Virus record (IMG/VR): IMGVR_UViG_3300020021_000021
Location: 1 to 44,233 of that record
Source: a virus
Length of the DNA stretch: 44,233 nucleotides
Direction: 5' to 3' (one strand)
Shown here one piece after another: positions 15,090 to 44,233 of the stretch; position 1 is the first letter of the stretch, and each line of letters starts with the position of its first letter. Under the pieces are notes generated by a model. It was not told the origin of the DNA, did not search any database, and saw only the letters and a list, made by a program, of their open reading frames with translations. The position numbers were made by a program, and so were the translations under genes.

Positions 15090-15112
15090 TTCTTATCAAA
15101 TATATACAATTA

Positions 15113-15865
15113 TCACCTAATCAGGTTTAACAAATTATTATCCTTAGTTAGCAATAATTTAAATTCCCTCGGCGTATTTTTAGCTACATCAACCCCAGCA
15201 CTTATAATAAAGCCCCTGTACGAATTGCCGTCAAGCGTATAAGATATGTAAGCACTCGGTAAACTTCGTATCAAAGCATAGGCATCACGGGGTAATTTAG
15301 TAGTTATATCAACCAAATAAGGCAAAAATAACTTATCAGCCAAAGCCGATACATTCCAGTTTGAATTTTCCGTATAACGTATGCCATCTAATCCAACGGT
15401 TGAAACCGCCGTATTTTTCAACGCGGATGTGAATTTTATTAAATAGCCATCATATTTATCCAATATACCGTGTAAATAGTCACCGTGTCGCACTAAATTA
15501 CGTTTTGGGGTAAGTAATAGGTTGTAAACACTGCTGCCCCCTGCCAGCCCCGTAATGCTTGTAAACGCCTCACCCTGTATCGGCTGATAATAAGTATGTC
15601 CGCTTTCTGGTGTATCGCGTATCATAACAAAGAACGGGTCATTATCACTTTTGGTTGTTTCGGGCGTGTTGCCCTGTATGCGGATAAACTCAATGCCGTA
15701 ACTATCGGCACGAATAACCGACATTAAATTCAATTCTTTTGCTATCCTGATTATTGGCAACGAGTAATTTTGCTCACTATTCGGCTCATCCTTTCCGTTA
15801 ACCACATCATACGTTTGGTCGGGATAGCCAATTTTAACGGCATTGTAAATATAGGCTTCATACAT
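15113..15865 (-). CDS. Tail protein, C-terminal fragment (frameshifted), 250 aa
   Basis: The open frame begins MYEAYIYNAVKIGYPDQTYD, but the same frame extends upstream as VIGNVQDAKLS before this ATG. In Bacteroidota phage tail-tip proteins as I know them, a 'viGN..d.k....eaYiyNsikiGYPnQ.Yd.vNG.dE' segment is internal to a protein of about 650 residues. The upstream 406-residue gene supplies the missing N-terminal part in the frame one base away. The two are probably one gene, broken in or near the GGG run at 15898-15900. The product would be a distal-tail or baseplate-hub structural protein. Confidence 0.7.
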   Translation of the reverse strand: MYEAYIYNAVKIGYPDQTYDVVNGKDEPNSEQNYSLPIIRIAKELNLMSVIRADSYGIEFIRIQGNTPETTKSDNDPFFVMIRDTPESGHTYYQPIQGEAFTSITGLAGGSSVYNLLLTPKRNLVRHGDYLHGILDKYDGYLIKFTSALKNTAVSTVGLDGIRYTENSNWNVSALADKLFLPYLVDITTKLPRDAYALIRSLPSAYISYTLDGNSYRGFIISAGVDVAKNTPREFKLLLTKDNNLLNLIR

Positions 15866-15872
15866 AGATAAT

Positions 15873-17093
15873 TTAGCATCCTGTACATTGCCAATAACCC
15901 TTAGCTTCTAAAACAGCCGTATCGTTCTGTATGCCAAACCCGGCGTTCGTTACGCTGTTGATTGATTGAAAGAAATCCTTAAAGCTGATCTTAATTTTCG
16001 CATCCGTAATTTGCCTGATAGCATCCCCGCAAGTAATTGTCAATTGCGGCCATGTGGTATCTAAATGATAGGATAAGGTAGGGTAAACAGCATCGTTCAT
16101 TAACTCGATCAGCTTATCAAATACATATTTCGGGCGCAATCCCTTGCACATTGATGCGGGGGTAATTGTTTGATAGGCTAATGATAATGTGCCATCGGTA
16201 ACCTGAAAGCCAACGTTAGTATTATTATCGGTAACGTTTTTGAAGTAAAAAAACAACCGTTCGTCTTTAAGTATTGAAGTTGTAAAATCCCATGAAAAAT
16301 CAAATATTCCAAAATTTGTAGTAACATCATATAGCGTAGCAACCAATATATTATCGCTCTTATATACATTAACCTGAAAGTGCTTTGCGCCCCCTGGCAA
16401 CGTAGAAACATTACCCTTTAAATTACCCTGTAACCTGATATCGGTATCAACCGTTGCTTTGTAGAAGAAATTATCATTTAAGTTATCAAATGAAGCGGCA
16501 CTATCAGCCACAAAACCGCTATCCTGTACAGACGGCGTTACCGAATTTTGCTGATTATTAACTACCTGTAATGCGAAAAAAGCATCCGAACGATGGTCGA
16601 TATTCAGTAAAAATATTAAATCGGCGGTTTCTGTTAATGATATGGGCGTTAACTGAATATCAATCGCTTCGGGTACATTAACAGGTATTTCATACACCTG
16701 ATTTTCGTATGCCTTTATAGCCGCTGATATGCCGCCTTCCATAACATTTACCGTAAATGTATATCCCTCTAAAGAACTCGCATCAACAACAGTTGAAAAA
16801 TCTATATCGCCCCGATATATTTCTGAATATGTCCAATCCGAGTTATTCAGTTCCTCAATAATAAACTCAACCCTACCCGCTAACCCATATTGATAAAATT
16901 CTGTACGTAATATCTTTGCGCCATCCAACACGAAATCCATAGGTATGGTAAACGTGCGTATCATACCGTAATAACTTTCAGAACGGTCAAAAGTGATCAA
17001 TGAGCCTTCCCATCCCTTAGGTGCTTCGGGAATAACATAGTTAAACAACCCCCGCACTGCAAGTGTATATCTAAATTGGTTGGGTTGTGTCAT
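15873..17093 (-). CDS. Tail protein, N-terminal fragment (frameshifted), 406 aa
   Basis: Immediately downstream of the tape measure gene (one base gap), the usual place of the distal-tail/tail-associated protein. It begins MTQPNQFRYTLAVRGLFNYV and has a beta-sandwich-rich middle. It ends DTAVLEAKGYWQCTGC, where the last residues look out of frame. Dropping one G after GCTAAG would continue EAK-VIGNVQDAKLSMYEAY into the 15113-15865 gene, for a single protein of about 659 residues. Either a real frameshift, programmed +1 frameshifting or a sequence error explains the split. Confidence 0.75.
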   Translation of the reverse strand: MTQPNQFRYTLAVRGLFNYVIPEAPKGWEGSLITFDRSESYYGMIRTFTIPMDFVLDGAKILRTEFYQYGLAGRVEFIIEELNNSDWTYSEIYRGDIDFSTVVDASSLEGYTFTVNVMEGGISAAIKAYENQVYEIPVNVPEAIDIQLTPISLTETADLIFLLNIDHRSDAFFALQVVNNQQNSVTPSVQDSGFVADSAASFDNLNDNFFYKATVDTDIRLQGNLKGNVSTLPGGAKHFQVNVYKSDNILVATLYDVTTNFGIFDFSWDFTTSILKDERLFFYFKNVTDNNTNVGFQVTDGTLSLAYQTITPASMCKGLRPKYVFDKLIELMNDAVYPTLSYHLDTTWPQLTITCGDAIRQITDAKIKISFKDFFQSINSVTNAGFGIQNDTAVLEAKGYWQCTGC

Positions 17094-19880
17094 TTAATTT
17101 ATATTGCGCCTAACATAATTATTCCATTTTTCGGTATTGGTCACGTACCCTTTTACCCCCTTGCTGGTTAGGATTGTGCCGTGTACAGGCTTCGCTTTTG
17201 CCAGGTGGCTGTTTACTTTCCTCATCTCATCCAACAACTTATCATCAACTTGCCCACCTGCGAAATTTATCTTTTCGGGCCGGGCTATCATGTTCACCAA
17301 ATCCTTATTTGATATAAATTTAGTACCGGCTTTTACCATGCCGATAGTTTCTGTGCTCGGTGTAAATGATTGTGTACCGTCCGGGTCAATACGTAATTCT
17401 GTACCGTGTCCGAAGGCGGCTAATCCTGTTTTTTTCATGGTGCCGCCGTGTTCAAATTTGGGTATTGGAGTAGCTAATAATGTCGCTACCTGTACTGCAC
17501 CAATAGCCTCAATCAATATCGCTAAAGGCGTTATCCAGCCAGCAGCAGAGGCGGCAATTAATGTATTTTCAACAATTTTAGCAATAGATACAGCCTTATC
17601 GAATTTAGCTTGCTTTTCCTGTACTTGCCTCCGTTGCATATCGAGCGCATCTTGTTGGGCGGATGCCTTAGCATTAATAACCGCTATTTTATTTGCCTTA
17701 TCTTCCTGCGATAAAGCAGAACGATCAACCGCATCAATCTCGTTTTTTGTCTTAACAGTTAAAGCATCTTTTTCATCCTGTATACGGTTAATCTGATTTG
17801 TATATCCCGCATTAATAACTGCTACAAAAAAAGCACCTACATCGTCCGCTAACTCTTTTCGCTTATCTGCTAATTCTTTTTCATCGGCCTTTAACCGTTC
17901 ATTGTCGGCTATTTGAGCATCGGTAGCCTCTTTAGAGTAACGGCGTTTTAGATCAGCTAATTTGCGTTCATCTTCGGCGGTATCTGCGCCTGTCTTTTTT
18001 TCAACTTCGAGTAAAAACTCAATGCCCTCAATTTGGATTTTTATACTTTCTAAATTGGCCTGTGTTTCAATATCTTTTTTCTGTTTTTGGTATTCTTTAG
18101 TAGATATTAACCCTTTTGCATATTGCTCTGATAATGCTTGAAGGGCATCGTTGGCATCGTCTTGATTAGCTTGTAAACGCTGTTGAGCATATTGTTTAGC
18201 CGTATCCTTGCTATTTTCCTGAATATCTTTTTGATTTTTAGCATCATCCCTTCTTGCCTTATCGATTTGGGTATTGTATTCTTTTTCCAAATCAGCTAAT
18301 TCTTTTAAGCCATCCTTTGCTATTTTTTGGCGGTCTTTTGCAACATCGTTATCCAAAGAAAGTAATAGATTTTTTCCTTCTACATTACTAAAAATGTGTG
18401 ATTTTATTCCGGCCTGTATAATGGCTTTTGAATTAGTATAATATTTTGTAATAGCATCTAACCGGGCTTGTATAAAACTTTCATCGTTCTGCAATACCTT
18501 ATCTTCGAGTTCTTTTTCGGTTTTAAGGCGATCATTTAGGTCTGATTTTACGTTATCGGGGGTCTTTGTATTGTCTTTGGCAGACAGTGCTGCGGCTATT
18601 TTATTATTCCCTCCAGCAAATTTTATTAAAAAATCAATCTGATCTTGCAGGTCTTTTTTATTGGCATCTTGTAATGCTGTAGATAAATCAGCCCTTTTAT
18701 TGATCACCTTGCGTTGTTCTGCTTCGGACAACCCTATAGATGTGCCGGACGTACCTGTAGTACCGCCGCCGCCTAAAATAAGTTGATTTGCAACCCCTTT
18801 AACCCTTGATAGTTCAGATTGCCGTGCATTTTCTATTTTTTGTTTTTGAAACTCAATATCTAACTGTTTAGCAGCCAATTCGCTTATTTTAGTAGCGGCG
18901 GCTTTTGCTTTTGCGTTCTCAAGTATGGCAGTAGTGGCTAAATTATAAGCATTAGCAGCACCACCGTTTAATATGGTTTCTGTTGTTATATTGCCAAATA
19001 AGGATGGAAATTCTTTTTGCAATTCCTTAGCTGCTAATAATCTGTTTTGCTCTGAATTGGTTACATCCTGTGTGGCTGAATAGAGGATACGTAAATTGGT
19101 TGATTGCTCACCATATTGCTTAGAGGTGTTGGCAGTAACAGCATTAAAATTAGATAGGTTTTTTTCTGAAAGAGAAAGCTTATCGTTGAATATTCCCAAC
19201 GCATCTGCCGCTTTACCTATCACCCCAAAAGCCAACGTAAAAATACCCGCAATACCTATCCCCGGCAATATATAAGCTAACGTCCGCAAATAGCCCAATC
19301 CTTTAGTTAGCTGTCCTCCTATCTTATCCAATCCGCTTGCTTGCACTGCCGTATTAGTTTCAATAGCCGCTGTTTCTGCTGATATTTCAGCAGTTGTTAT
19401 AGCTTTTGCAGCCCCTACCTGTTGCGTTTGCGTTTTATACGCCGCCGCCCTTGCCGCCGCCCTGCCTTGCGCAATATCATTTTCATTAACGGCGGTGGTC
19501 ATAGCATTTTGGGTAGCGATTGCCTTTTGTGCCGCCGCTATTTCAGCCGCCGTATTTTCTGTTACAACCCTGCGCCTTTTAGCGGCAATAGTCTCTTGTT
19601 TTGCAGCAATCTCATCCCGCTTTGCTTGTAACCTTATTTCAGAGGCTTTTATCTTTTCAGAATTATCAATAATTTGTTTGGTTGCCGCATCGCTCTCCTT
19701 CGCAGCCTTAGTAAATTGACTAAATGAAACAGCGCCGCCAGTAGCTTTAACCAAAGCATCAGCCTGTTTTGCCGTCGCCACAAACTGCGCCTCTAAAGAA
19801 ACTAACGCTTTCTCTAAATCGGCGACCTGCTTATTACTAATCGGGTCTACTACTTCGGTTATCGCTCCGCTATTTGACAT
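17094..19880 (-). CDS. Tail tape measure protein, 928 aa
   Basis: A very long helical, Ala/Lys/Gln-rich protein following the chaperone-like genes. Residues 1-170 and about 440-740 are coiled coil (KIKASEIRLQAKRDEIAAKQ). A hydrophobic segment sits at about 200-230 (LRTLAYILPGIGIAGIFTLA) and a second at about 770-810 (AAGWITPLAILIEAIGAVQV). The C-terminus has GHGTELRIDPDGTQSFTPS. This is the classic tape measure layout. It fixes tail length; 928 residues at about 1.5 angstrom each predict a tail of roughly 140 nm. It identifies the virion as long-tailed. Confidence 0.92.
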   Translation of the reverse strand: MSNSGAITEVVDPISNKQVADLEKALVSLEAQFVATAKQADALVKATGGAVSFSQFTKAAKESDAATKQIIDNSEKIKASEIRLQAKRDEIAAKQETIAAKRRRVVTENTAAEIAAAQKAIATQNAMTTAVNENDIAQGRAAARAAAYKTQTQQVGAAKAITTAEISAETAAIETNTAVQASGLDKIGGQLTKGLGYLRTLAYILPGIGIAGIFTLAFGVIGKAADALGIFNDKLSLSEKNLSNFNAVTANTSKQYGEQSTNLRILYSATQDVTNSEQNRLLAAKELQKEFPSLFGNITTETILNGGAANAYNLATTAILENAKAKAAATKISELAAKQLDIEFQKQKIENARQSELSRVKGVANQLILGGGGTTGTSGTSIGLSEAEQRKVINKRADLSTALQDANKKDLQDQIDFLIKFAGGNNKIAAALSAKDNTKTPDNVKSDLNDRLKTEKELEDKVLQNDESFIQARLDAITKYYTNSKAIIQAGIKSHIFSNVEGKNLLLSLDNDVAKDRQKIAKDGLKELADLEKEYNTQIDKARRDDAKNQKDIQENSKDTAKQYAQQRLQANQDDANDALQALSEQYAKGLISTKEYQKQKKDIETQANLESIKIQIEGIEFLLEVEKKTGADTAEDERKLADLKRRYSKEATDAQIADNERLKADEKELADKRKELADDVGAFFVAVINAGYTNQINRIQDEKDALTVKTKNEIDAVDRSALSQEDKANKIAVINAKASAQQDALDMQRRQVQEKQAKFDKAVSIAKIVENTLIAASAAGWITPLAILIEAIGAVQVATLLATPIPKFEHGGTMKKTGLAAFGHGTELRIDPDGTQSFTPSTETIGMVKAGTKFISNKDLVNMIARPEKINFAGGQVDDKLLDEMRKVNSHLAKAKPVHGTILTSKGVKGYVTNTEKWNNYVRRNIN

Positions 19881-20922: not shown

Positions 20923-21066
20923 CTATTGCTTAACTTTCGCCTTTACCTTCTTCTCCTGCAAATCTTCCCAAACTTTCGCCAGGTCAAATTTGTCTGCATG
21001 GTGCTTATGTTGCTTAATAAATACAGCCTTGCTATGTTTATTAGCCCACTGTTTATTAAACCCCAT
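20923..21066 (-). CDS. Small tail-region protein, 47 aa, with in-frame stop
   Basis: ATG 21066 shares a base with the stop of the tail tube gene. The product reads MGFNKQWANKHSKAVFIKQH and then a Lys-rich helix ending KAKVKQ at TAG (20923-20925). The frame stays open for 13 more codons after the TAG, giving EADMPSSEEEENN before TAA (20881-20883). The acidic end looks like a natural C-terminus, so the TAG may be a recent mutation or be read through. Function unknown. Confidence 0.6.
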   Translation of the reverse strand: MGFNKQWANKHSKAVFIKQHKHHADKFDLAKVWEDLQEKKVKAKVKQ

Positions 21067-22001
21067 TACAACGTCAATACAGGAATACCCTCGAAGCCCT
21101 CAATACCGGCATTGAACAAATCCAACGCTGAAGCCAACCCGATCAACACACCGCCCGAAGTAGGGTAGTTAGGATCACCGCTATCAACCGTTACCGTCCA
21201 CGCTTTCAATGTAGCGTCAACCACAACCGAGGTTATAGCAATAACTTCACCATTATCATTTACCGCAGTCCATAACGCATCATCCGCTAACTCCGCAGAA
21301 TAGGTATCATAAAGATCAAAGCCGTTACAGCCTGTTTTAGCTTTGATTTTAAGGATAGGCAAGTTACTGCCTGTTGTTTCATACAAAACAATGTTTTGCA
21401 GTCCACGCAGGGCTACCAAATCCCCAATATTCATTTGCACAAAACCTATCAATTCATTAAGGTATGGTTTTAAAAATGAAATATCGGTAACGTAGGCAGT
21501 CGGGTTTGAACCGTCTGATAGCTTTAACGGGTTTTGATAAAATAAAGTAAGGGGAATACCTTTTAAGGTATCGTCAACTTTATATCCTGCCATTACACCG
21601 TTTGCGTCCCAAAGGATTACGGCTTTGTTTTGTGTATTGAACTTGCGCAAGGCATTACTTAGGCAAAGTCCGCCATCAATAAATTGAAACGATAGGTTAT
21701 AAAACCCCTCCCTCGTAATGGCTACCCTTCCATAGCCCAATGTTGCCTTAGTTGGCGCATCTGAACTATCTGTTAAGGCCTCATAAGTACCCATGGGATA
21801 TGCCCGAAGCGATGCCGCCGCAAGTATATCAGCTTTGATAGCCTCTAATAGAGTAGCTGGTGTAGCCAACTCCAAAGCGGTATAAACACGCCCAACAGGG
21901 ACTAAAACCCCCCCGACTATGTTTTTCAGGTCTATGAAGCAATCCCCATAGCCCGTATTTGCGCCGCTTACCTCGCAATTTTTATAGTTTAATATGCTCA
22001 T
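21066..22001 (-). CDS. Putative major tail (tube) protein, 311 aa
   Basis: Beta-rich protein placed after the neck genes and before the chaperone/tape measure genes, the normal place of the tail tube protein. It begins MSILNYKNCEVSGANTGYGD; the middle has GRVAITREGFYNLSFQFIDG and the C-terminal third has repeated Val/Thr-rich strands (SVVVDATLKAWTVTVDSGDP), possibly an Ig-like add-on. The call is from position and fold character; no signature motif is visible. Confidence 0.65.
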   Translation of the reverse strand: MSILNYKNCEVSGANTGYGDCFIDLKNIVGGVLVPVGRVYTALELATPATLLEAIKADILAAASLRAYPMGTYEALTDSSDAPTKATLGYGRVAITREGFYNLSFQFIDGGLCLSNALRKFNTQNKAVILWDANGVMAGYKVDDTLKGIPLTLFYQNPLKLSDGSNPTAYVTDISFLKPYLNELIGFVQMNIGDLVALRGLQNIVLYETTGSNLPILKIKAKTGCNGFDLYDTYSAELADDALWTAVNDNGEVIAITSVVVDATLKAWTVTVDSGDPNYPTSGGVLIGLASALDLFNAGIEGFEGIPVLTL

Positions 22002-23396: not shown

Positions 23397-24824
23397 TTAA
23401 GATACTGGTGCTGCTATCCCTGCTTCCACATTCGCCCATGTATCATAAAGAACAGAGTTCTCACGATTTGAAGGAATGTATGACAGGAACCGTTGATACC
23501 CCCGGAATGATGTACGGTCATAACGGAAATCTTCGCCGTTTAACCCACGCTCGAATACCAGGTTGCCATAAGCCTTAATTTTAAAGCCTAAGTCCTTGCC
23601 TATTACCAACACGTTGGTTGAAGGCACATCATCCTGATCTACCCAAACAACATGCACCCCGGCGATGTATAGTTCGCCTAAGTTATTGGTGTAAACCAAC
23701 GGGTTGTTTTGGTAACGCTCATTCAAATCCTTTAGGTTCTGAATACGGTAATACACATCAGCGGAAACGAAAGCTAAAGCTGCTTCTTCGCGGTTATTAG
23801 CGAATAAGGCAAAAATAGCTATCAGATCGTCGATGTAATTCGGGTTTTCCACGCTATCAGCGAAAGCAGGGGTTGTTTGGTACTGGATAGCATTTTGTTT
23901 TAAGCCCAATGGCGCATCGGGGTTAACGCCAGGATTGTTGTTTAACAAGCCGTCGTTAATTGCCTCACGCATTTGCTGCATAAAATCTTCACGTATCCAA
24001 TTCTCCAAAGACGAAACGTCTTTCAACAATTCATCCTCAACAGTTCCGAAGATAGCTACCTTTTTAGCCTCTACCTTACCTGTTGATACACGGAATGAAC
24101 GTTTTGGTTTTAATGCTCCTGAAACTATCCAGTCTGCACCACCGGGGTTGCCTGAAACGCTTGCGCTATCGCCAATTTCTTCTTTTTGAAGATACAGTAA
24201 CGTAGGCACATTGATTTGCTGAATATCGAACCAATCCAGTATAAGGTTACGTTTGTGGCGTATTTTATATAGTTCAGGATCAATAAACCTGCCTGTAAAG
24301 GCGGTCATGTCGGTATCAGGCGCACCCTCAAAGAATTGAGGATAACCGAAGTTTTCGGCTGCTTTTATCTCGATACGGGCATCTTCTTTTGTTTTTACAC
24401 CGTCTTTGAAGGTGGCGGCAATAAAATCTTCTACTAATTTAGTAGTAACTAATTGCCCTTTTTTCAGTTTTTTACCAGTTTGCTCCTTCGCTTGATCGGC
24501 ATCTTCCTGCAATTCTAAAATCTGCTTGTGCAAACTTTCGTTTTGCTTGTTGATCTTATCCAATAGGTCGGTTACTTGTTTCCCGGTTAAAGTATCAATA
24601 CCTTCTTTTAAAGCCAATAAATCGGCCTTTATTTGGGTAATTTCGGCTTCGTCCGCCTTTTCGCCGAGCATTGTATTGAATTTCTCCACCTGGTCGCCGA
24701 TTTCTTTTATGGCTTTCAGTTCAGGGGTTTCGGTTCCTCCACCTCCCCCGCCATCTTCGCCAGCCCATAAAGCCATACGCATAAAATGCGGGGCGCTTTT
24801 GTTATCTAAAAATTTCTTTTTCAT
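23397..24824 (-). CDS. Major capsid protein, HK97-like, 475 aa
   Basis: Residues 1-30 are a linker with a six-glycine run. Residues about 35-120 form a coiled coil (EIGDQVEKFNTMLGEKADEA, DLLDKINKQNESLHKQILEL) typical of the scaffolding delta domain of HK97-type capsids. From about 170 on there is a capsid fold region with NLILDWFDIQQINVPTLLYL, then NWIREDFMQQMREAINDGLL and a C-terminal RDxxRFRGY-like end (FRYDRTSFRGYQRFLSYIPS). The delta domain is normally removed by the prohead protease, whose probable gene is just upstream. Confidence 0.9.
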   Translation of the reverse strand: MKKKFLDNKSAPHFMRMALWAGEDGGGGGGTETPELKAIKEIGDQVEKFNTMLGEKADEAEITQIKADLLALKEGIDTLTGKQVTDLLDKINKQNESLHKQILELQEDADQAKEQTGKKLKKGQLVTTKLVEDFIAATFKDGVKTKEDARIEIKAAENFGYPQFFEGAPDTDMTAFTGRFIDPELYKIRHKRNLILDWFDIQQINVPTLLYLQKEEIGDSASVSGNPGGADWIVSGALKPKRSFRVSTGKVEAKKVAIFGTVEDELLKDVSSLENWIREDFMQQMREAINDGLLNNNPGVNPDAPLGLKQNAIQYQTTPAFADSVENPNYIDDLIAIFALFANNREEAALAFVSADVYYRIQNLKDLNERYQNNPLVYTNNLGELYIAGVHVVWVDQDDVPSTNVLVIGKDLGFKIKAYGNLVFERGLNGEDFRYDRTSFRGYQRFLSYIPSNRENSVLYDTWANVEAGIAAPVS

Positions 24825-25693: not shown

Positions 25694-26980
25694 TTAATTT
25701 GTTGTAGCTGATTGTTGCTCTTGTCCTTTTGCTGGCTTGATGACCGCTGTTGATGCGACATAATTACGTTCTCCCTTACTAAAATTAGTATCTAAATATT
25801 CATTAACTTCGTCTAAAGGTACGCCTTGATTTATCAGATTTGCAAATGATATAGATTTTAATTTTTCAATTTCGGCTGTATCGCGGGCAAATACCTGCAT
25901 AAATGGCAGGTGATCCCACTTCATTACCAGTTTTTTACCCTCGGCCGTATATCCCCAACGGTCACTTAATCGGTTCATCAAATCATCGCCTTTCGGCTGT
26001 AAGGTATAGGAAACCTGCGCACCCCTTGCCTTCTCCTGGTTCTCGTATGTTGCCGAACCTGACACAAAAGCCTCTAATACGTCCTTTGGAATATTGTACA
26101 TATTGCCTATCAGAAAGTAAGCAGATAAATATTTTTCATTGAGTTGCAGTTGGGCCATATTCTCAACAAATCGTTTAATTTCAATCATTGACTTAACTGC
26201 GGTAACTTGCTCGCGCCCGTTTACTTTTTTCTCTATATCTTTTTTCTCGTCTTCGGCCAATGGCAGTTTAGTTACATCGTTGGGGTCTGATGTGCCAGCC
26301 ACTAAAAATTTACCTGAATAGCGTAAATTAATATTCTCGCTGTCTAACGCCGCTTCGGTATTGCTAACAACCTTATACAAAGCATCAATACGGCTGTTTG
26401 ACTTGAACCAATTTCCGTTGCCGTTGGTCAGATCGGTAAAGGTTATGATTTTAGATAGCGGTATCTCAATTGTTGAGCCATCCTGATAACGGTAAATTAT
26501 TTTTTGATCGTTAAACTCTTTCTCCAATGATTTAGAGAATATCATCTTATCTGCATTCCTTTGCACCCATAACGGAAACTCCATTTTATTCGTTTCGAGG
26601 AAGTATAGCTTATTATTTTCCTTATCGGCTAAGTCGCTATCAACATAGAGATATGCGGTATTTAACATCAGCCAAAACATATAATCCCAAAGCCATTGAT
26701 TTTGAGATTGCATAGGATTGGGGTTTTTCAGCCTATCCAATGCAGGGTCGGCTCCTATATCCTTGCCATCTTTGTAAACATAAATCTTACCTAAACTGAA
26801 TAAATCACATTGCAGGGCAAATACTTTTAATAAGGCGGGGTTAGAAAAAACGGCTTGAAGTTTTTTAAGGTCATCGCCGTAATTGTTAAATATTGGTGTC
26901 GCCGACCATAGGTTAAATGGCATGAAACCATCCCAAGTACGTGTAAACCTTTGCCTGACATTGTTAAACCAATCCCACAT
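25694..26980 (-). CDS. Portal protein, 428 aa
   Basis: Between large terminase and protease/capsid genes. It begins MWDWFNNVRQRFTRTWDGFM. The sequence AYLYVDSDLADKENNKLYFL and the stretch SKIITFTDLTNGNGNWFKSN correspond to the portal's typical 'P...i.h.....g..G.sri' region. ALDSENINLRYSGKFLVAGT follows. Length fits phage portals of the HK97/SPP1 sort. It forms the dodecameric DNA gate at the capsid vertex. Confidence 0.85.
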   Translation of the reverse strand: MWDWFNNVRQRFTRTWDGFMPFNLWSATPIFNNYGDDLKKLQAVFSNPALLKVFALQCDLFSLGKIYVYKDGKDIGADPALDRLKNPNPMQSQNQWLWDYMFWLMLNTAYLYVDSDLADKENNKLYFLETNKMEFPLWVQRNADKMIFSKSLEKEFNDQKIIYRYQDGSTIEIPLSKIITFTDLTNGNGNWFKSNSRIDALYKVVSNTEAALDSENINLRYSGKFLVAGTSDPNDVTKLPLAEDEKKDIEKKVNGREQVTAVKSMIEIKRFVENMAQLQLNEKYLSAYFLIGNMYNIPKDVLEAFVSGSATYENQEKARGAQVSYTLQPKGDDLMNRLSDRWGYTAEGKKLVMKWDHLPFMQVFARDTAEIEKLKSISFANLINQGVPLDEVNEYLDTNFSKGERNYVASTAVIKPAKGQEQQSATTN

Positions 26981-27012: not shown

Positions 27013-28374
27013 TTATATTGTTTTAATAATTCCTTGACTTTTCAGAAAAGCATAAATATACCTGGCACAATCCATCAGGTGATTGTCAACATCTTCCGGC
27101 TCTTCCAGCACTATGCCGTAACGGTCAACCTGTCTGCTATAATTTTCCTGTTCATATTTCAGGTTTTCGCTACATGAAGTATAGCATACTTTCATATTGT
27201 TTAGCCCGGATATGCCGTCAATTACTGAACCTGGGGGCTTTTGAGCGGCTATTGAGTAGTCATAACCAGCAGCACGTAACGCACGTATTTTAGTAGGCCT
27301 GTTAGGGTCACAAACTATAACCCTATCCTTATTTATCCCCAATCGGTTAAATACCCACGAAACAATACCCTCTTCCATTGAGTTAATCATTTCAAGCTCT
27401 TTTAGGCTAAGTTTTGGCTTTAAAATGTTCTCACTGTCATAATGTCGCTCATGTAAATACAGGCAACCATCATAATATTTAGCATCAAGTATAGCCCACG
27501 GGTCAACAGCCCCCCAATCGGATGCGGAATGTACGGTTGTACCAATGGCGTTATACTCATCCAACGATATTTGTTGCCAATGGAATATCCTGTTAGGACG
27601 TTCTGCTTTCAAGCCCCTGCCGTAGACATGCCAGTTAAATTGCGAAGCGGTGCCTATGCGCTCATTCTCCTTACACCTCGACAATTCCTTTAATTGCTTT
27701 TCTGTAAAATTTAACTCATTAAGTAAAATATCGTATTTTTTAGCTTCGTGCTCATTTATCTGCTCTGCTATACTACAATCAGAAACCGGTTGATAAGAAA
27801 GTATTTTAATGCGCTGTTCGGGTGGGCAAAACGGGTTGTCCTTAAATGTAGAGTGAATTACCAATGTGCGGGGGTCTTTCTTTAAATCATCAATCCAGTG
27901 GGCTTGCTTTGGGTTCCAATCTATAAATACAATGTCTGTTGTACGCATATCCAACTGATCAAATGTTGCCCGGCTTATTTTATACGGTTCATTTAACCAA
28001 ATAACATCACCCTGGTAACCGTGTACTTTATCAATATCATCCGTTCCGCATATCTCAATATTGGTTTTAGTAGGGAAGTAGAATACTGATTTTGAAATAT
28101 TAAACCTTACTTGTTGCCACCTTGTTAGCGATGGGTATACTTTATGCATATCGTGCATAACAGTATCTCTGCAATCTTTTGCGGTATCTCGCCAAACAGA
28201 TAAACGTGAATTTTCGGTTTCGTTGGCATAGCAGTAAAATACCTGCAATAAAGATTGTGTTTTGCTTGATCGGCTGCTACCTTCCAAAAGTATGTAACGA
28301 TATTTTTTATTACCTTCGTTATCACGGGCCTTAATGCCTTCCCATATACGCTGAAACACAATAGTAGCTTGCAT
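27013..28374 (-). CDS. terL: Terminase large subunit, 453 aa
   Basis: ATPase motifs: Walker A GSSRSSKT at residues 32-39, Walker B VIWLNEP at 124-130 (Glu129). The nuclease half has SDWGAVDPWAIL (about 285), VIVCDPNRPTKIRALRAAGY (about 365) and DNHLMDCARYIYAF near the end, supplying the acidic residues of the RNase H-like domain. This is the Terminase_3 (PBSX/SPP1-like) layout and usual length, which suggests headful packaging and agrees with a circularly permuted contig. Its ATG overlaps the ATG of a divergent glycosyltransferase gene. Confidence 0.93.
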   Translation of the reverse strand: MQATIVFQRIWEGIKARDNEGNKKYRYILLEGSSRSSKTQSLLQVFYCYANETENSRLSVWRDTAKDCRDTVMHDMHKVYPSLTRWQQVRFNISKSVFYFPTKTNIEICGTDDIDKVHGYQGDVIWLNEPYKISRATFDQLDMRTTDIVFIDWNPKQAHWIDDLKKDPRTLVIHSTFKDNPFCPPEQRIKILSYQPVSDCSIAEQINEHEAKKYDILLNELNFTEKQLKELSRCKENERIGTASQFNWHVYGRGLKAERPNRIFHWQQISLDEYNAIGTTVHSASDWGAVDPWAILDAKYYDGCLYLHERHYDSENILKPKLSLKELEMINSMEEGIVSWVFNRLGINKDRVIVCDPNRPTKIRALRAAGYDYSIAAQKPPGSVIDGISGLNNMKVCYTSCSENLKYEQENYSRQVDRYGIVLEEPEDVDNHLMDCARYIYAFLKSQGIIKTI

Positions 28375-28939
28375 GTTAATTAATATACTTATCCGAACAT
28401 CCTACCGTCCCTCCGGCTTCAAACGTGCCTTACAATCGGTATTAAACCAAACGCACAAAGATATACGAATAATTGTTAGTTATGACAATCATAATGCGTT
28501 ACGATATATTCCCGATACGGTGGAAAAGGTAAAGGTGCTGCGTGTCCCTGGTAATTACTTCTATGATGATTATTGTAATAAGCTGAAAGAGTTGGTAACG
28601 GACGGCTATTTTTTGTTCTTGGATGACGATGATTATTTATCTAATCCAAAAACACTTGCCAACCTGCCACTATCAGAGGATTACGGGCTGATAGTACAAC
28701 TTCGCCGGGGCAATGTTATCCGTCCTGAAACATCTGAAATATTACCGGGTAAAATCGGTATGCCCTGTTTGATATTGCACCACTCACATAAACATTTAGC
28801 CAACATACCACCAACAGGGCAAGGTGATTATTATTGGATAAAGGCGATTAGTGAAAAATTGCCTATGCGATTTGAGCCCATTGTTGTAGTTTGTAGTGAT
28901 AGGCGAGGTAATGGGAAGCAGGAACGGCCTAACGGGTAA
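28373..28939 (+). CDS. Family 2 glycosyltransferase, 188 aa
   Basis: Begins MLINILIRTSYRPSGFKRAL, the standard GT2 opening (ILIRTsyRp..f.raLqSvlnQT), followed by HKDIRIIVSYD and YFLFLDDDDYL near residue 80-90, the metal-binding DxD region. It lacks a membrane segment, so it acts in the cytoplasm. It is the only plus-strand gene in the late region. Its start codon overlaps that of the terminase on the other strand (CATG), and its end overlaps the convergent FkbM gene by 11 bases. Sugar and acceptor are unknown. Confidence 0.85.
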   Translation: MLINILIRTSYRPSGFKRALQSVLNQTHKDIRIIVSYDNHNALRYIPDTVEKVKVLRVPGNYFYDDYCNKLKELVTDGYFLFLDDDDYLSNPKTLANLPLSEDYGLIVQLRRGNVIRPETSEILPGKIGMPCLILHHSHKHLANIPPTGQGDYYWIKAISEKLPMRFEPIVVVCSDRRGNGKQERPNG

Positions 28940-29525
28940 AGATTAGATTCTCCGCATTCTTAACAGCAACTTTAAAGCCCTTGCAGTAATCGGTAAATAG
29001 CCTGTACAAATCCGTGTCACTATTCCATTCGATGCAAAGGCATTTAGTATACGTAAGGTCAATTTGTTGTAATATCTCCCAATCTTTTGACTCTGCATCA
29101 ATGGATATGAAATCAAACTTATCTGTAAGATCATAAGGCTTAACATCAACTATTCTTTCTGTAAACTGAACCCCTGATTTTCGCCATTTTAAGGTTTCGT
29201 TATAATCAAGCGTTGACACTAAACCCCTGTCGCTTCCCCCTTTTATATGGGCGTTGCTTTCATAAAAGGTCATTGTGCCGGGCTGCTTGCCGATAGCGTG
29301 GTTATGCAATGTAATTTTTGGGTTATCTTTGTATAACTTCTCTAACTGGTCAAATGTTGTGCCCGGCTCTACCAATGTGGCTGAAAACCCATGTTCGATT
29401 AGTAGTTTAGAGTTGCTTAAATCGACGCCGTTGTTACTGCCAATTTCCAGTAAATTTCCCCTAAGCTTACCGAAGTAATTAAGAATAAACAAGTCTTCTT
29501 TATTTTGTGAGTAAGTTTTTAACAT
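28929..29525 (-). CDS. FkbM-family methyltransferase, 198 aa
   Basis: SAM-binding motif NLLEIGSNNGVDLSNS (about residues 24-39), then TLVEPG, then the family's FISIDAESKDWEILQQIDL (about 138-156; compare lkiDvEGhE..vl). FkbM enzymes usually O-methylate sugars or other small acceptors. Lying with five glycosyltransferases, it probably methylates a glycan made by them (inference). Its start overlaps the end of the upstream glycosyltransferase by seven bases. Confidence 0.85.
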   Translation of the reverse strand: MLKTYSQNKEDLFILNYFGKLRGNLLEIGSNNGVDLSNSKLLIEHGFSATLVEPGTTFDQLEKLYKDNPKITLHNHAIGKQPGTMTFYESNAHIKGGSDRGLVSTLDYNETLKWRKSGVQFTERIVDVKPYDLTDKFDFISIDAESKDWEILQQIDLTYTKCLCIEWNSDTDLYRLFTDYCKGFKVAVKNAENLIFTR

Positions 29526-30133
29526 ATACCATCGGCTAACAACAATGTTTTTTCTGAAATAGTCGGCTCATCCATCTTGCCATATACCATAAATGTATTG
29601 CCATCTTGAAGTTTTAATCCCATTTTATATGCTATAAGACTTGCACAGGTCTGATCGTGTCTAAAATTATCCCATGATCCGTTAAACACACCGTCCTGCA
29701 TAGCCTGTAACCAATCGGATAAGAACTTGCGCCCAATCTCTGTTTCTAAATTCAACCCTAATACCCCGCTTGATAGCATCCTGCCTTCGTTTGTGCCAAA
29801 ATACTCCTTTGCCTTATCGTTAGTCCACCTATCATTCATCCACCCGCTATCCTGAAAGAAATAACCGTCCTGCTCAATAATATCAAATATAGGCTGTAAG
29901 TCTTTAATAACCAACATTGAGGCATCAAGCCACAGCAAATGCTTATAACCTATGCGCATGGCATCAACAAACGTAGCTGGCTTAAAGCCGTAGTTATTCT
30001 CACTATGTAACGGTGCATTAACTTGCAACTCCGAAGTGTAGAGGATGCAATCATACGACCCTTTAAGGCTATTAAACAGCCGTTGTTGCCCCTTGCGGTA
30101 TTTCTCCGTGCTTAAATTAATTACCGCCCTCAT
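29519..30133 (-). CDS. Putative glycosyltransferase (GT8-like), 204 aa
   Basis: I prefer ATG 30133 (MRAVINLSTEKYRKGQQRLF) over 30187, because the longer N-terminus is polar and would overlap the previous gene by 71 bases. Contains HLLWLDASMLVIKDLQPIFD, the 'lwlDaD..v..dl.pl' motif of GT8/GT-A enzymes (here Asp-Ala-Ser), then GMLSSGVLGLNLET-like and FRHDQTCASLIAYKMGL. The DxD is partly changed (DAS), so activity is less certain. Confidence 0.75.
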   Translation of the reverse strand: MRAVINLSTEKYRKGQQRLFNSLKGSYDCILYTSELQVNAPLHSENNYGFKPATFVDAMRIGYKHLLWLDASMLVIKDLQPIFDIIEQDGYFFQDSGWMNDRWTNDKAKEYFGTNEGRMLSSGVLGLNLETEIGRKFLSDWLQAMQDGVFNGSWDNFRHDQTCASLIAYKMGLKLQDGNTFMVYGKMDEPTISEKTLLLADGIC

Positions 30134-30734
30134 TGGGGTTTTGCCAATAGGGGTTGCTTTTAGTTGAGGCTTCCGTTGTTTGCGCATTGAAATTATATTT
30201 GAATAATACCTTATCTATAAAATGTTCTGTTGTAGCTTCGGTTAGGCATTGTTCAATGAATACCCAATCTTCGCCGTAATTGATTGCCGGGAATTGAAAC
30301 TTCTTGAACTTGTTATGCCAGGCACAATTCGGGAACGGGGGCCGGTTGCAGTCGAGGTACTTACCATTAAATGTATTATGTTCCACTTCGTTACCCAATC
30401 GCTGCGTAACGATATATGTTGATCCGTTCTCATTCCTACATTTAGCCTTAAAATCAATTACATCTACATCGTTAAATGTAGCTTCGTAAATTTCTTTAAT
30501 GTTAATTAGCCAATCATCGTCATGTATAAACATGAAGTATTTGCCGCGCGCCGCAGCCTTTAGTTGATTATGCTTTTCCCCTATGGTGCAAACCTTATTA
30601 TCGGTTAACATAAGTATCTCCACCCGCTTTTTACCTACCATCTTTAAGCAATGGTTGTATAGCTTAATTGCCTTATCGAACCTGCTCGGGATTGAGGGTA
30701 TGAGTATGGATAGTTGTATTACTTTTTCATCCAT
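30117..30734 (-). CDS. Family 2 glycosyltransferase, 205 aa
   Basis: Begins with QLSILIPSIPSRFDKAIKLY and has GKYFMFIHDDDWLINIKEIY near residue 80 (the acidic metal site) and PAINYGEDWVFIEQCL near residue 150. The GT-A fold and short length resemble the neighbour at 30719-31255, so the two probably arose by duplication. Start overlaps the previous gene by 16 bases. Confidence 0.8.
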   Translation of the reverse strand: MDEKVIQLSILIPSIPSRFDKAIKLYNHCLKMVGKKRVEILMLTDNKVCTIGEKHNQLKAAARGKYFMFIHDDDWLINIKEIYEATFNDVDVIDFKAKCRNENGSTYIVTQRLGNEVEHNTFNGKYLDCNRPPFPNCAWHNKFKKFQFPAINYGEDWVFIEQCLTEATTEHFIDKVLFKYNFNAQTTEASTKSNPYWQNPNEGGN

Positions 30735-31255
30735 CTGTAATGATATAAATTGCCTTTAATGATATTTTCAGTCTTCAACCACGGCAATAATGCCATGCTA
30801 TACCCGTAATCTTCACCGAACGCTATTTCAGGGAACCTTGCTTGCAAAGCTAATTCCCTACGTACAGGGCTTATATGATTAGGAGTTCTGTAATAGATTG
30901 AGTTTCGCTCATACCACTTACCATAATCTTTAGATATATGCCATTGCCGTTCATTGCGCCCATTGGTGGTAATTGTTCCTGATATACCTATACAATCTGC
31001 GCCCATTGCGTTTAAGATGCTTGATATGTATTTAGGAGATACTAAGTCGTCATCATCTATAAATACGATATAATCACCGGCTGCACGTTGGAGTAGCTTA
31101 TTTCGTTTTACCCCGATGTTATATTCCATTGACGGGTCGGTGATAATCTCAACTTCGTTACCTGTGTACTGCCTGCCTAACAGCTGAATTAACCCCGCTA
31201 ATTGCAAGCGCCTGGTTGGCATGGTGGCTATAAGGATGGATAGTTTTATCGCCAT
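30719..31255 (-). CDS. Family 2 glycosyltransferase, 178 aa
   Basis: Opens KLSILIATMPTRRLQLAGLI; the metal site is DYIVFIDDDDLVSPKYIS (about residues 65-80), and FPEIAFGEDYGYSMAL lies near 150, matching the GEDW segment of the next gene. Cytoplasmic, no membrane helix. Start overlaps the previous gene by ten bases. Confidence 0.85.
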   Translation of the reverse strand: MAIKLSILIATMPTRRLQLAGLIQLLGRQYTGNEVEIITDPSMEYNIGVKRNKLLQRAAGDYIVFIDDDDLVSPKYISSILNAMGADCIGISGTITTNGRNERQWHISKDYGKWYERNSIYYRTPNHISPVRRELALQARFPEIAFGEDYGYSMALLPWLKTENIIKGNLYHYRWMKK

Positions 31256-31884
31256 TTTATATCAGTATATTTTATTAAAGGATTTTCAATTCCAAAGTTA
31301 TTAATTAATCTGCGTGCAAGTGTGCGCTCGCCCTGTGGAAAGGTTGCATCATTCTTTATGTTTATAGCGTCTTTTCGGGTACGCTTAGTTGAGTAATGAT
31401 TATGAGGGAATATTAAATCCGATTTAATCACTCGCCCTAACATATGTCCGACAATTGTTAATTCTTCATCAGCGTGCATATGTAAATAATCAGGATGATA
31501 AACATAACCAAACCTTTCATAATACACCCTGTCCATTATCGGTAACGTAATTAAGGTTGGTTGTATGCCGTCATATGTTTTTACCAAAAAGTCTTGTTTA
31601 CCTTCCAATTCAGCAAGCAATAACGTATCCCAATGGTTAGGACAATCGAAATCATCGCTACAGACTATAAATAATCCACCCTGTGCTAACTTCGCTGCGT
31701 TATTGATAGCATCTATTGCCGAACGGTTATCGTGTCTTACACCGCCTATATACGTGCTATTATCTGATTTATCTATACTTAGTATATATTCGGGGTTGGT
31801 ATCTGCTTTTGACAGCCAATTCTGCATTGTTTCGTATGCTTGCTTGGGACGGCCCCGGCTTGGATGGATTAACGTTATGGTCAT
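31246..31884 (-). CDS. Glycosyltransferase-like protein, 212 aa
   Basis: Begins TITLIHPSRGRPKQAYETMQ, a GT-A-type opening, with LFIVCSDDFDCPNHWDTLLL (about residues 75-95) as the likely metal/nucleotide site. The C-terminal half has HMHADEELTIVGHMLGRVIK and a basic end. Less typical than the other cassette members but clearly related in plan. First gene of the cassette, 39 bases after the putative small terminase. Confidence 0.7.
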   Translation of the reverse strand: MTITLIHPSRGRPKQAYETMQNWLSKADTNPEYILSIDKSDNSTYIGGVRHDNRSAIDAINNAAKLAQGGLFIVCSDDFDCPNHWDTLLLAELEGKQDFLVKTYDGIQPTLITLPIMDRVYYERFGYVYHPDYLHMHADEELTIVGHMLGRVIKSDLIFPHNHYSTKRTRKDAINIKNDATFPQGERTLARRLINNFGIENPLIKYTDIKWR

Positions 31885-31923: not shown

Positions 31924-32187
31924 CTAATCGTCATCTAATGGCTTGATAATTTCAATTTCGAGTTTGTTGTTAAGTTCACCTTGTATATCAGCGTTGATTT
32001 GGGTGGGTATTAGCTTACTGGCTAATTTATAGAACTCTGTTGGCTCGGCAATAGCCCATACCTTTAACTTAGCTGTTGGATGCTCCTGTAATTCTGCAAA
32101 TACATCAGCAAATACCTCTTTAACTAACTTGGTAGTTTTGTTTGTTGCACCCTCTGGCCTGCCGCCTTCGCCCGGTTTAAATGCCAT
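31924..32187 (-). CDS. Putative terminase small subunit, 87 aa
   Basis: Starts MAFKPGEGGRPEGATNKTTK, the 'FkpG.sGrPkGatNktt' opening frequent in small proteins at the head of phage packaging modules. A helical body (LVKEVFADVFAELQEHPTAK) and KLIPTQINADIQ then follow. First gene behind the late promoter, in the place of a small terminase, but separated from the large subunit by the 3.5-kb glycosyltransferase cassette. The assignment is from the motif and position. Confidence 0.65.
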   Translation of the reverse strand: MAFKPGEGGRPEGATNKTTKLVKEVFADVFAELQEHPTAKLKVWAIAEPTEFYKLASKLIPTQINADIQGELNNKLEIEIIKPLDDD

Positions 32188-37182: not shown

Positions 37183-39396
37183 TTAGGAAAATAATAAATG
37201 TTGGCCCTTAGATAATTCAGCATTTTGGCAATTCTTTACAGCCACGTCAAAATAAGACGTTTTCAGTTCGCCACCAACTGCCTTTCGATCCATTTCTAAA
37301 GCCTTAAATAACTCGCTGCCAATACCTGCAAATGGAGTGTAAACAGTATCGCCTTTGTTTGTCCATAAATGCAAGCTGCGCTCAATTGTATCAAGCTGTA
37401 AAGGGCAAATGTGCTTTTCATCTTTATCATCTCTTGCACCTTTTAGGTTAAGCGTATTGCCATAATCAATATCCATCCATACAGGTGACGCTATTTTTTG
37501 CCACATATCAACCGGTAGATAACCAGGTATCAACGGGTCTTTATCCTGATGTACAACAGGGTGCAAATGTTCACCAGGCTTACGGAATACCATCAAATAA
37601 TCAGGAATACCCACCCGGCTCATGGCAGCATCTTTTTTAATCTGCTTATGCAATAAGCCCAGCGCCTTTGTACGCGTCATTTCGGTTACGGGATTTTTCC
37701 AAAGTGTAACCCTGCTATGGTAAATAAAACCCGCTTCTAAAAATGCCTGTAATATCATGCCGCTAAAGTCACGAAGTCCAATATAACCCTCTTTGCCTTT
37801 TTGAATAGGCAAGTCCATGCAATGCACAGCCACGTTACGGCCCGACCATAATATACGGTACAGGTCTTGCACAATAAATTTAAAGGCATATAAAAACTCG
37901 TTATAATCTTTTGAGTTTCCCATATCTTCTAATTCCGAGCTGTACGTATATAATTCGGCAAAAGGCGGACTAAATATTGAAAAACCAATACTATCATCCG
38001 GTATGTTTTTTATAGTTTTTACACTATCCCCTAAAAACAATTTAAAGTTTTTACCCTCAACTGTTTTAATTTCACGGGTGGTTTTTTCTTTAGTTTCAGA
38101 TTTTACATTTTTCATAATCGCTTTTGCCATGCTTTGTTGCATATGCTCAAATTGTTTCTGTTTTTTATAAATTGATTGAATAACGTTAGTCATAGTATCG
38201 GTGACTAAAATATAGATATTAACAGGATGTAGTTGCCCGAAGCGGTAAGATCTACGTATGCCCTGGTATAAGCCCTCAAAGCTAAAATCAGGCGATGCAA
38301 ATACTTGGTTATGGCAATTCTGATAGTTCATACCCATCGCTGCCACTTTTGTTTTAGTAATTAAAACCCGAAACTCATTGTTAGCAAATCCGAGTAATTT
38401 TTCTTTTTTATATTCGGGATTATCAGACCCTTGCACATTTATACTACCTGGTATAAGTTTTCGCAATTCATCCGCTTCATCATTATGCTTTACCCACACT
38501 ATAAAGGTTTCAGGCGAATTATTAACAATATCAATTACTTGCTCAATGCGGGCTAATTTGGTTGCCCGTAATTCAGAATTGAAGTTTGTTGCAGATACGG
38601 CCATATCATTAAATAAGCGATTGCCTTTTACTTCGGTTCTTATTTTTCGCTCAATTAACTCTAACTTGGGTAAGTTATACCCGTCCATGTGAAAGCCTAT
38701 ATCTTCCGGCTTTGAAAGCATGACAGCCCATTCCGATACCCATTCATAAAATCGCTCTTTAGCATGTCCTTTTAATCTCCACTTTGCCGTATCGCCGCCG
38801 TCGTGTACAAAATACATAGCCAGCATTTCATTGTACGGCATAACGTTTAAAAACTCGGCATGGTTACCCAATTCCATCGGGTCGTTTGGGCTGGGCGTTG
38901 CTGTACAAGCTAATTTATATTGCGTATCTGCGAAATTATCAATTATGAGTTTTCGGGTGGCGCCATCAAAGTTTTTAATGATACTGCTTTCATCGAGTAC
39001 TATGCCCCCAAATAGTGAACAATCTATATTGTGAAGTTGCTCATAGTTAGCAATATAAACACATTCGTCTGTAGCATCCGCTAATTCCGATAACTCTCTT
39101 ACTGTCACGCCAAACTTAATACCCTCTTGTATTGTTTGCGCAACAACCGCCAAAGGCGCCAAAATCAACACATCTAAATCAGTATGTTTAACAACCCGAT
39201 GCGCCCATTCGAGCTGCTGAAAACTCTTGCCCAGGCCACAGTCTTGAAATAATGCAAATCGGCCCTTTCGTAAGGCGGTTTGAACGCAAAAAGCCTGAAA
39301 CGGGAATAACAACGGGTTTAAATCGGCTATTTTAACATGAAAGCCCGTATCAGATACCGTTCGTTTTTTCGATAGTAAAAATTCGTTGTATGTCAT
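37183..39396 (-). CDS. SNF2-type helicase fused to DNA methyltransferase, 737 aa
   Basis: Residues 1-430 are an SNF2-like superfamily 2 ATPase: Walker A DCGLGKS (52-58), motif II LDESS (134-138), motif III CTATPSP (164-170) and motif VI QGIRRSYRFGQ (378-388). Residues about 445-737 are an N4/N6-type DNA methyltransferase: SPPF catalytic motif (476-479), target-recognition middle, and SAM-binding TPFAGIGSELF (687-697) at the end, the beta-class motif order. The product could methylate phage DNA, protecting it from restriction, while moving along it. Similar fusions occur in other phages. Coupled by four-base overlap to the clamp gene. Confidence 0.88.
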   Translation of the reverse strand: MTYNEFLLSKKRTVSDTGFHVKIADLNPLLFPFQAFCVQTALRKGRFALFQDCGLGKSFQQLEWAHRVVKHTDLDVLILAPLAVVAQTIQEGIKFGVTVRELSELADATDECVYIANYEQLHNIDCSLFGGIVLDESSIIKNFDGATRKLIIDNFADTQYKLACTATPSPNDPMELGNHAEFLNVMPYNEMLAMYFVHDGGDTAKWRLKGHAKERFYEWVSEWAVMLSKPEDIGFHMDGYNLPKLELIERKIRTEVKGNRLFNDMAVSATNFNSELRATKLARIEQVIDIVNNSPETFIVWVKHNDEADELRKLIPGSINVQGSDNPEYKKEKLLGFANNEFRVLITKTKVAAMGMNYQNCHNQVFASPDFSFEGLYQGIRRSYRFGQLHPVNIYILVTDTMTNVIQSIYKKQKQFEHMQQSMAKAIMKNVKSETKEKTTREIKTVEGKNFKLFLGDSVKTIKNIPDDSIGFSIFSPPFAELYTYSSELEDMGNSKDYNEFLYAFKFIVQDLYRILWSGRNVAVHCMDLPIQKGKEGYIGLRDFSGMILQAFLEAGFIYHSRVTLWKNPVTEMTRTKALGLLHKQIKKDAAMSRVGIPDYLMVFRKPGEHLHPVVHQDKDPLIPGYLPVDMWQKIASPVWMDIDYGNTLNLKGARDDKDEKHICPLQLDTIERSLHLWTNKGDTVYTPFAGIGSELFKALEMDRKAVGGELKTSYFDVAVKNCQNAELSKGQHLLFS

Positions 39397-43395: not shown

Positions 43396-43560
43396 CTAAG
43401 CATTAAATACCGCATACACCAATCCCGAAGAAGTAAACCATACCTCCTCAATCGTCATCACTCTTTTCAAAAACGAGGCGTAATATTCCACCTCTGCCAC
43501 CTGCTGATAATTCGGCGACAATTCGCTGTATCGGTATAGGGTTGTTGTTACGGTTTTCAT
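43396..43560 (-). CDS. Hypothetical small protein, 54 aa
   Basis: ATG 43560 overlaps the stop of the repeat gene (ATGA); ends at TAG 43396-43398. Reads MKTVTTTLYRYSELSPNYQQ then a beta/alpha body containing RVMTIEEVWFTSSGL. The pattern 'lYrysELs...Q..a' resembles short phage proteins. Function unknown. Confidence 0.65.
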   Translation of the reverse strand: MKTVTTTLYRYSELSPNYQQVAEVEYYASFLKRVMTIEEVWFTSSGLVYAVFNA

Positions 43561-44233
43561 GCAAAAAATGCCTTAAATTCATTATTACCAAATCTACCTT
43601 TTGTCAATTCTATTATCTCTTTAACAGTATAGCCTTTTTTAGCAACGTTATTTGATTTAACAAAATCTTTCGTTCCAAAAGCACAAGCCCCAGTAATTGA
43701 CCGATAAGCCTCGATAGCTTCTGAAAAAGTAAATAAGTGAGATAATTTCAATCCTTTAAATTTAGTGGTATCCCGATTAGATATTTTATAGATCAAATTT
43801 TCTCTCGCCTCTTTCAAATTATCGCCGTGCGCCCATTTGTTATTACCATCGGTTACCAGGTAAATAACCTTTTGTTGGTTTATTTTTCTTACCTGATAAA
43901 CATTACCCTTTTTGCGTACTATTTCAGTAAAGATACCATCAGCTTTTATATATTTATTATCAGGCCATACAATCGGGTTTTTGATTATCGGCGTTGTAAG
44001 TTTAGTCCATTTTGCTTTAGCTTTTAAGTCGCTTCCGATGTCTAAGTCGCCGCCCACAGTAGGGTTGAACCCATCAGGCAGGGACGTAACGCTTCGCAGG
44101 TCTAAGTCGCCGCCCACAGTAGGGTTGAACCCATCAGGCAGGGACGTAACGCTTCCGATGTATAAGTCGCCGCCCACAGTAGGGTTGAACCCATCAGGCA
44201 GGGACGTAACGCTTCGCAGGTCTAAGTCGCCGC
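43557..44233 (-). CDS. 20-residue-repeat protein, C-terminal part (joins 242..1)
   Basis: This is the rest of the gene that starts at 242. It enters at 44233 inside the repeat, carries full TSLPDGFNPTV units, then leaves the repeat near GSDLKAKAKWTK. The final 150 residues form a conserved-looking domain: KGNVYQVRKINQQKVIYLVT, NKWAHGDNLKEARENLIYKI, then FSEAIEAYRSITGACAFGTK and a helical end. This last domain is the usual partner of such repeats in phages; its function is unknown. An internal GTG at 44177 is not the true start. Confidence 0.85.
   Translation of the reverse strand, partial: GDLDLRSVTSLPDGFNPTVGGDLYIGSVTSLPDGFNPTVGGDLDLRSVTSLPDGFNPTVGGDLDIGSDLKAKAKWTKLTTPIIKNPIVWPDNKYIKADGIFTEIVRKKGNVYQVRKINQQKVIYLVTDGNNKWAHGDNLKEARENLIYKISNRDTTKFKGLKLSHLFTFSEAIEAYRSITGACAFGTKDFVKSNNVAKKGYTVKEIIELTKGRFGNNEFKAFFA
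44030..44233. repeat. 60-bp tandem repeat array, right part
   Basis: The same 60-base unit as at 1-168, here about 3.4 copies. Bases 44182-44233 match 1-52 with mismatches only at the second and eighth positions, so these 52 bases are best read as the overlap of a circular contig. Confidence 0.95.

Follow-up and report, generated by a model that had tools for sequence, protein, structure and literature searches.

The IMG/VR virus record IMGVR_UViG_3300020021_000021 (44,233 bp, analysed at its full length and called the window here) carries the TerL (large terminase), portal, probable capsid and tape-measure genes of a tailed phage on its minus strand. Between TerL and a gene resembling those for the small terminase (TerS-like), positions 28373-31884 are occupied by six open reading frames (ORFs), in agreement with an earlier note that had placed a six-gene glycosyltransferase/FkbM cassette there. 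From the TerS-like gene towards TerL the order is TerS-like, GTa, GTb, GTc, GT8-like and FkbM on the minus strand, and then GTd on the plus strand (Table 1).

Table 1. The six cassette genes and their neighbours, with positions in the window.
Feature	Position	Strand	Basis or remark
GTa, GT-A glycosyltransferase, first core gene	31246..31884	-	PHROG 14945; AlphaFold
GTb, GT2 glycosyltransferase	30719..31255	-	PF00535; PHROG 14775; Che8 gp108 homology
GTc, paralogue of GTb	30117..30734	-	PHROG 8858
GT8/GT6-like glycosyltransferase	29519..30187	-	AlphaFold fold match; PF01501 below cut-off
FkbM-type O-methyltransferase	28929..29525	-	PF05050; PHROG 8156
GTd, GT2 glycosyltransferase	28373..28939	+	PF00535
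TerS-like gene, 87 aa, PHROG 11043	31924..32187	-	Synteny; 5' border of cassette
TerL	27013..28374	-	PF04466, 39.3 bits; 3' border of cassette
Portal protein	25694..26980	-	PF04860, 50.7 bits
Probable major capsid protein, candidate acceptor	23397..24824	-	Order TerL, portal, 24830 gene, capsid gene

The proteins were judged against the curated cut-offs of Pfam and against PHROGs profiles, and AlphaFold models of GTa and the GT8-like protein, built from alignments of 12 and 11 relatives, respectively, were compared with solved structures by Foldseek. PHROGs labels GTa, GTb and GTc as glycosyltransferases with E values from 1e-9 to 4e-32, and an acidic DD/DxD-type motif is kept in all four GT2-type proteins. 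GTb and GTd exceed the cut-off of PF00535 (43.1 and 30.8 bits); GTb also matches PHROG 14775 (4e-32) and has the motif DDDD. GTa scores below that cut-off (16.0 bits) and matches the glycosyltransferase family PHROG 14945 (1.4e-9); the best Protein Data Bank (PDB) matches of its model (predicted local distance difference test score, pLDDT, 84.5) are the fucosyltransferase WrtF, TarP and GalNAc-T2. GTc, present in a minority of cassettes, is 27-28% identical to GTb and matches PHROG 8858 (8e-22), and a search of Pfam gave no credible match for it. The GT8-like protein reaches 14.6 bits with PF01501, compared with a curated cut-off of 24.3, which leaves it outside the GT8 family as Pfam defines it. 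Its model (pLDDT 87.6) is closest to BoGT6a, glycogenin, LARGE1 and the capsid glycosyltransferase of PBCV-1. The earlier note had proposed comparing predicted structures with GT-A folds, and the two models made both match solved GT-A glycosyltransferases, so that GTa and the GT8-like protein are predicted to be GT-A enzymes. At the expected DxD the latter has DAS, and its best fold match, BoGT6a, is called metal-independent in its PDB entry. Its true start is probably the ATG at 30133 and not position 30187, since the first ∼18 residues are modelled with low confidence and are missing from most relatives. The FkbM protein passes the curated cut-off of PF05050 (24.3 versus 22.7 bits), matches the methyltransferase family PHROG 8156 and shares the motifs EIGxNxG and FISIDAE with 12 relatives, and its profile found no match among solved structures. 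The assignment in the earlier note of four GT2 enzymes, one GT8-like enzyme and an FkbM methyltransferase is thus sustained for FkbM and, by fold, for the GT8-like protein, while the number of GT2 enzymes is four only with the inclusion of GTc, which PHROGs but not Pfam recognises. As also noted earlier, none of the six proteins has a predicted membrane segment (highest 19-residue Kyte-Doolittle mean, 1.21), and the cassette gene set includes no flippase.

GTd is convergent with FkbM, which its 3' end overlaps by 11 bp, and its start codon and the ATG of TerL overlap within the palindrome CATG (28372-28375). It lies on the strand opposite to the other cassette genes in every relative in which it was located (among them L042, L076, L121, L129, L188, L194 and L196), and it is therefore not co-transcribed with the other five. 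Transcription of the cassette with the late genes, as previously suggested, is consistent with the orientation of those five genes and does not extend to GTd. The Bacteroidota -7 promoter motif TAWNTTTG occurs 43 times in the window compared with 43.15 in shuffled sequences, that is, no more often than by chance, and for this reason a promoter was assigned neither to the cassette nor to GTd.

When GTb, GTa, FkbM and GTd were used as queries against IMG/VR and loci from a TerL search and a genome collection were added, 133 non-overlapping locus groups were obtained, of which 59 contain at least four of the six cassette genes as detected with alignment-derived profiles. The order among relatives is nearly always GTa, GTb, a variable middle and then GT8 and FkbM in either order, and the middle genes include GTc, a TylF-type methyltransferase (PF05711) and another methyltransferase-like protein. 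Three loci have further features: downstream of the cassette, an intein-type domain (PF14890) splits TerL in L184 (12028-14010); in L047 the cassette is followed by a gene that looks GroEL-like by eye (15112-16698); and L216, from a Bacteroidetes metagenome-assembled genome, has a GTa-GTb pair (10001-11149) and, next to it on the opposite strand, an ORF of 2493 aa whose type is unknown (11927-19408).

The TerS-like gene has no Pfam match and belongs to no named TerS family, PHROG 11043 being a family of unknown function. In 10 other cassette contigs the gene immediately 5' of GTa is a homologue of it. Homologues also immediately precede TerL in Rhizobium phage RHph_N2 and in L049, whose cassette has a different location, and this adjacency to TerL supports the small-terminase reading. 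In relatives of the window's TerL that have no cassette, a recognised TerS adjoins TerL (L004, L005 and L007) or an unrecognised TerS candidate takes that place (L006). Hence in the window the cassette separates the TerS-like gene from TerL. The same arrangement, for which the earlier note had suggested searching related phages, was found in the closest relative and in distant contigs, and the order TerS-like, cassette, TerL recurs in two distant cassette clades.

The position of the cassette relative to head genes was assessed more broadly in 58 non-redundant contigs with at least four cassette genes, nearly all from IMG/VR and including one prophage locus in a bacterial genome (L217). Neighbouring genes were clustered and representatives named with PHROGs and Pfam, and genes for TerL, portal, maturation protease, head-morphogenesis, capsid and sheath proteins were counted in the 36 contigs that extend 3 kb or more beyond the cassette in both directions. 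Such a gene lies within 3 kb of the cassette in 30 of the 36 and within 5 kb in 31, compared with about a quarter (25%, by our own arithmetic) of the positions in the window itself that would pass the 3-kb test. Short contigs are biased, because such hallmark genes partly determine which contigs are classed as viral; the bias is small at 35 kb or more, where 15 of 19 contigs have such a gene within 3 kb. The contigs are not independent and therefore no P value is claimed. The backgrounds in which the cassette occurs include TerL families PHROG 2, 15, 979 and 6681 as well as the TerL type of the window, and portal families PHROG 12 and 11226. On a tree of GTa, GTb and FkbM, these terminase and portal backgrounds need at least 12 changes, the PHROG-2 and PHROG-979 types being scattered over several parts of it. 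The insertion point likewise varies, between the TerS-like gene and TerL, between TerL and portal, between portal and protease, or beside the protease and capsid genes on the other strand. From these comparisons the cassette appears to be mobile among unrelated head modules, with exchange of its middle genes.

Such positions could also arise if the head module were only a recombination hotspot near the terminase genes and the enzymes glycosylated a cytoplasmic protein of the host or phage, for example a defence or takeover factor. In favour of the hotspot, other contigs have different glycosyltransferase and methyltransferase cargo near TerS-TerL, so that the site tolerates insertions; L007, for instance, carries at 4621-8463, directly upstream of TerS-TerL, a set with PF13704, PF13489 and the Stealth-like PHROG 7999. 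A single hotspot nevertheless fails as an explanation, because cassettes occupy all of the head-module places listed above and a related set lies in an operon that encodes an extracellular contractile injection system (eCIS), and we consider a cytoplasmic target unlikely.

Compared with the closest relative, a 46,136-bp contig (L003), the ratio of nonsynonymous to synonymous substitution rates (dN/dS) is 0.04-0.16 across the six cassette genes, GTa having 0.16. All six genes are thus under purifying selection, and the cassette is functional. Synonymous divergence from L003 is 0.5-1.5 in the cassette versus 0.35-0.41 in the TerS-like, TerL, portal and capsid genes, and identity drops to 55% inside FkbM, so that the cassette has also exchanged alleles.

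The kind of system proposed here is already known from actinobacteriophages. GTb matches 59-60 records in INPHARED, from actinobacteriophages and related phages, whereas none of its 50,697 records is matched at 1e-5 by GTa, FkbM, GT8 or GTd. In mycobacteriophage Che8 (cluster F), GTb aligns with the N-terminal half of gp108 (tblastn, 34% identity, 1e-18; profile comparison, 4e-39). Capsid and tail proteins of Che8, Corndog and Myrna are reported to be glycosylated in PMC12363180, PMC11600133 and PMC11256854, which cite Freeman 2023. Che8 gp108-110 resemble the present cassette as a small set of soluble glycosyltransferases, the N-terminal half of gp108 being homologous to GTb and GTc; they differ in being right-arm genes outside the head module, and the C-terminal half of gp108, gp109 and gp110 have no detectable homology to other cassette genes. 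Homology to the whole gp108-110 cassette was therefore rejected, as GTb and its paralogue GTc alone match. Corndog (cluster O), compared by description only, has an O-methyltransferase and three glycosyltransferases, gp35-38, among its head genes, between portal and capsid protease (PMC4351075), and PMC11600133 says that they modify the capsid and tail tube; its host is actinobacterial and its insertion point another one. In LittleE (cluster J) the major capsid gene is immediately succeeded by a GTb homologue and then by further glycosyltransferases (genes 15-21), but genes 15, 16, 17, 18 and 21 include no homologue of GTa, FkbM or GT8. The chlorovirus PBCV-1 also encodes soluble glycosyltransferases that act on its capsid protein, one of which (PDB 2p72/2p73) is similar to the GT8 model, although PBCV-1 is a giant virus of eukaryotes and the resemblance is at the level of the GT-A fold only. 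Like the Che8 and Corndog systems, the cassette combines soluble glycosyltransferases, GTb homology, a predicted sugar O-methyltransferase (FkbM) and an association with head or packaging genes, the last of which is not obligatory in this kind of system as the Che8 genes sit elsewhere. Within the collections and papers covered, the core enzymes, the host group, the wide spread among head modules and the sharing with an injection-system operon are new, and a search of the openly licensed literature for a described Bacteroidota virion-glycosylation cassette found nothing relevant.

Phage-borne glycosyltransferase cassettes of the GtrABC serotype-conversion type modify the host surface, and PHROGs places the cassette families under moron and host takeover functions, so that a modification of lipopolysaccharide, capsule or a surface glycoprotein for superinfection exclusion has to be weighed. 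GtrABC systems consist of membrane enzymes and a flippase, neither of which is present here, the cassette of the window lies in the late module, and its enzymes have counterparts in an eCIS operon; a host-surface target is accordingly quite unlikely in our estimate.

The eCIS operon in question is that of Mucilaginibacter flavidus (L223, 12046-19198), in which homologues of GTa (57% identical) and FkbM, together with extra glycosyltransferase and methyltransferase genes, lie downstream of sheath-like genes, bordered by a DUF6519 baseplate-region gene on one side and by eCIS_core (PF13699) genes on the other. In L213, too, GTa and FkbM homologues with extra genes of the same two kinds are part of an eCIS operon and precede eCIS_core genes. 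By its location, the Mucilaginibacter glycan would be attached to the particle; a search of the openly licensed literature for eCIS particle glycosylation found nothing relevant. Contractile injection systems package no genome, which bears on the possibility that the cassette modifies packaged DNA, whereby a hydroxylated base would first be produced and a methylated sugar then attached to it as a means of escaping restriction. Phage glycosyltransferases of the T4 type do act on DNA, and a position beside the terminase genes could suggest a modification linked to packaging. However, related enzymes occur with these DNA-free particles, and other cassettes are found between portal and protease genes or next to capsid genes and not among replication genes. 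A thymidylate-synthase-type hydroxymethylase (PF00303) was found in none of 36 records, including the window, in a search whose control was positive in 9 of 14 genomes, many of the records being fragments; TET/JBP dioxygenases (PF12851) were found in none of the 36 either, in a search that had no working positive control. A DNA target therefore seems very improbable.

We propose that the six genes are, with good probability, a modular virion-glycosylation cassette. Its product would most likely be a small O-methylated sugar chain on the phage's own protein shell. A virion protein is favoured as the target because of the position beside head genes in unrelated phages, the homology of GTb to Che8 gp108 and the presence of related genes in an eCIS operon. 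Among the targets that the earlier note had listed for a phage-made methylated glycan, the virion is thus the best supported, DNA is disfavoured and the host surface has no positive support, there being neither membrane anchor nor flippase. During the late phase of infection, the soluble GT-A enzymes would work in the host cytoplasm, using nucleotide sugars of the host, and would build a short oligosaccharide stepwise on a protein of the assembling particle, after which the FkbM enzyme would O-methylate one sugar. In this scheme the identity of the genes, the folds of two enzymes, the conservation, the position and the sharing with an eCIS are shown, and the timing of expression, the order of the enzymes, the acceptor and the glycan are inferred. 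The acceptor would most likely be the major capsid protein and otherwise the major tail protein, for which the gene at 21066-22001 is a candidate.

Several points weigh against this proposal. In five of the 36 contigs, nothing recognised as a head or packaging gene lies within 5 kb, and only GTb connects the cassette to experimentally studied phages, its four partners searched in INPHARED being unmatched there. In profile comparisons the C-terminal half of Che8 gp108 does not resemble FkbM, GTd, being on the opposite strand, may be expressed at another time, and the presence in the eCIS operon might relate to a different product encoded there.

The product of the probable capsid gene in the window is 99% identical in L003 and weakly similar to the capsid proteins of L005, L006 and L012. 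The closest deposited TerL proteins, at ∼40% identity, are from Flavobacterium phages, and a Bacteroidota host is inferred from this similarity. Elsewhere in the window, a helicase fused to an N6/N4 DNA methylase (Helicase_C, N6_N4_Mtase; 37183-39396) neighbours a DNA polymerase III beta-clamp gene, and a protein with ∼20 tandem hexapeptide-like NIGDGANIGN repeats is encoded at 10575-11249. The ends of the record (1-60 and 43557-44233) share one short repeat encoding GGDLDLRSVTSLPDGFNPTV-like units, and the record may have been cut in, or joined at, a repeat of the GGDLDLRSVTSLPDGFNPTV type.

Phage-encoded virion glycosylation has been reported for a few actinobacteriophages and is discussed mainly as a shield from mammalian antibodies. 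Here the same swappable gene set is found again, next to head genes, in dozens of phages that have not been cultured, and given that the cassette appears to be mobile and its middle genes exchangeable, different phages would carry different coats. A wider proposal, which we hold tentatively and rate somewhat below even, is that Bacteroidota phages and eCIS share one exchangeable particle-glycosylation module, with a conserved core of GTa, GTb, FkbM and GT8 and a variable middle, by which protein particles would receive methylated coats that can be exchanged for one another ('phage serotypes'). Because cassette genes also occur in an injection-system operon, the hypothesis of a protein-particle target can be tested directly. 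A glycosylation cassette that recurs, moves and diversifies among environmental Bacteroidota phages would show sugar-coated particles to be common and to be selected for reasons unrelated to animal immunity, such as adsorption, stability or protection from proteases or predators.

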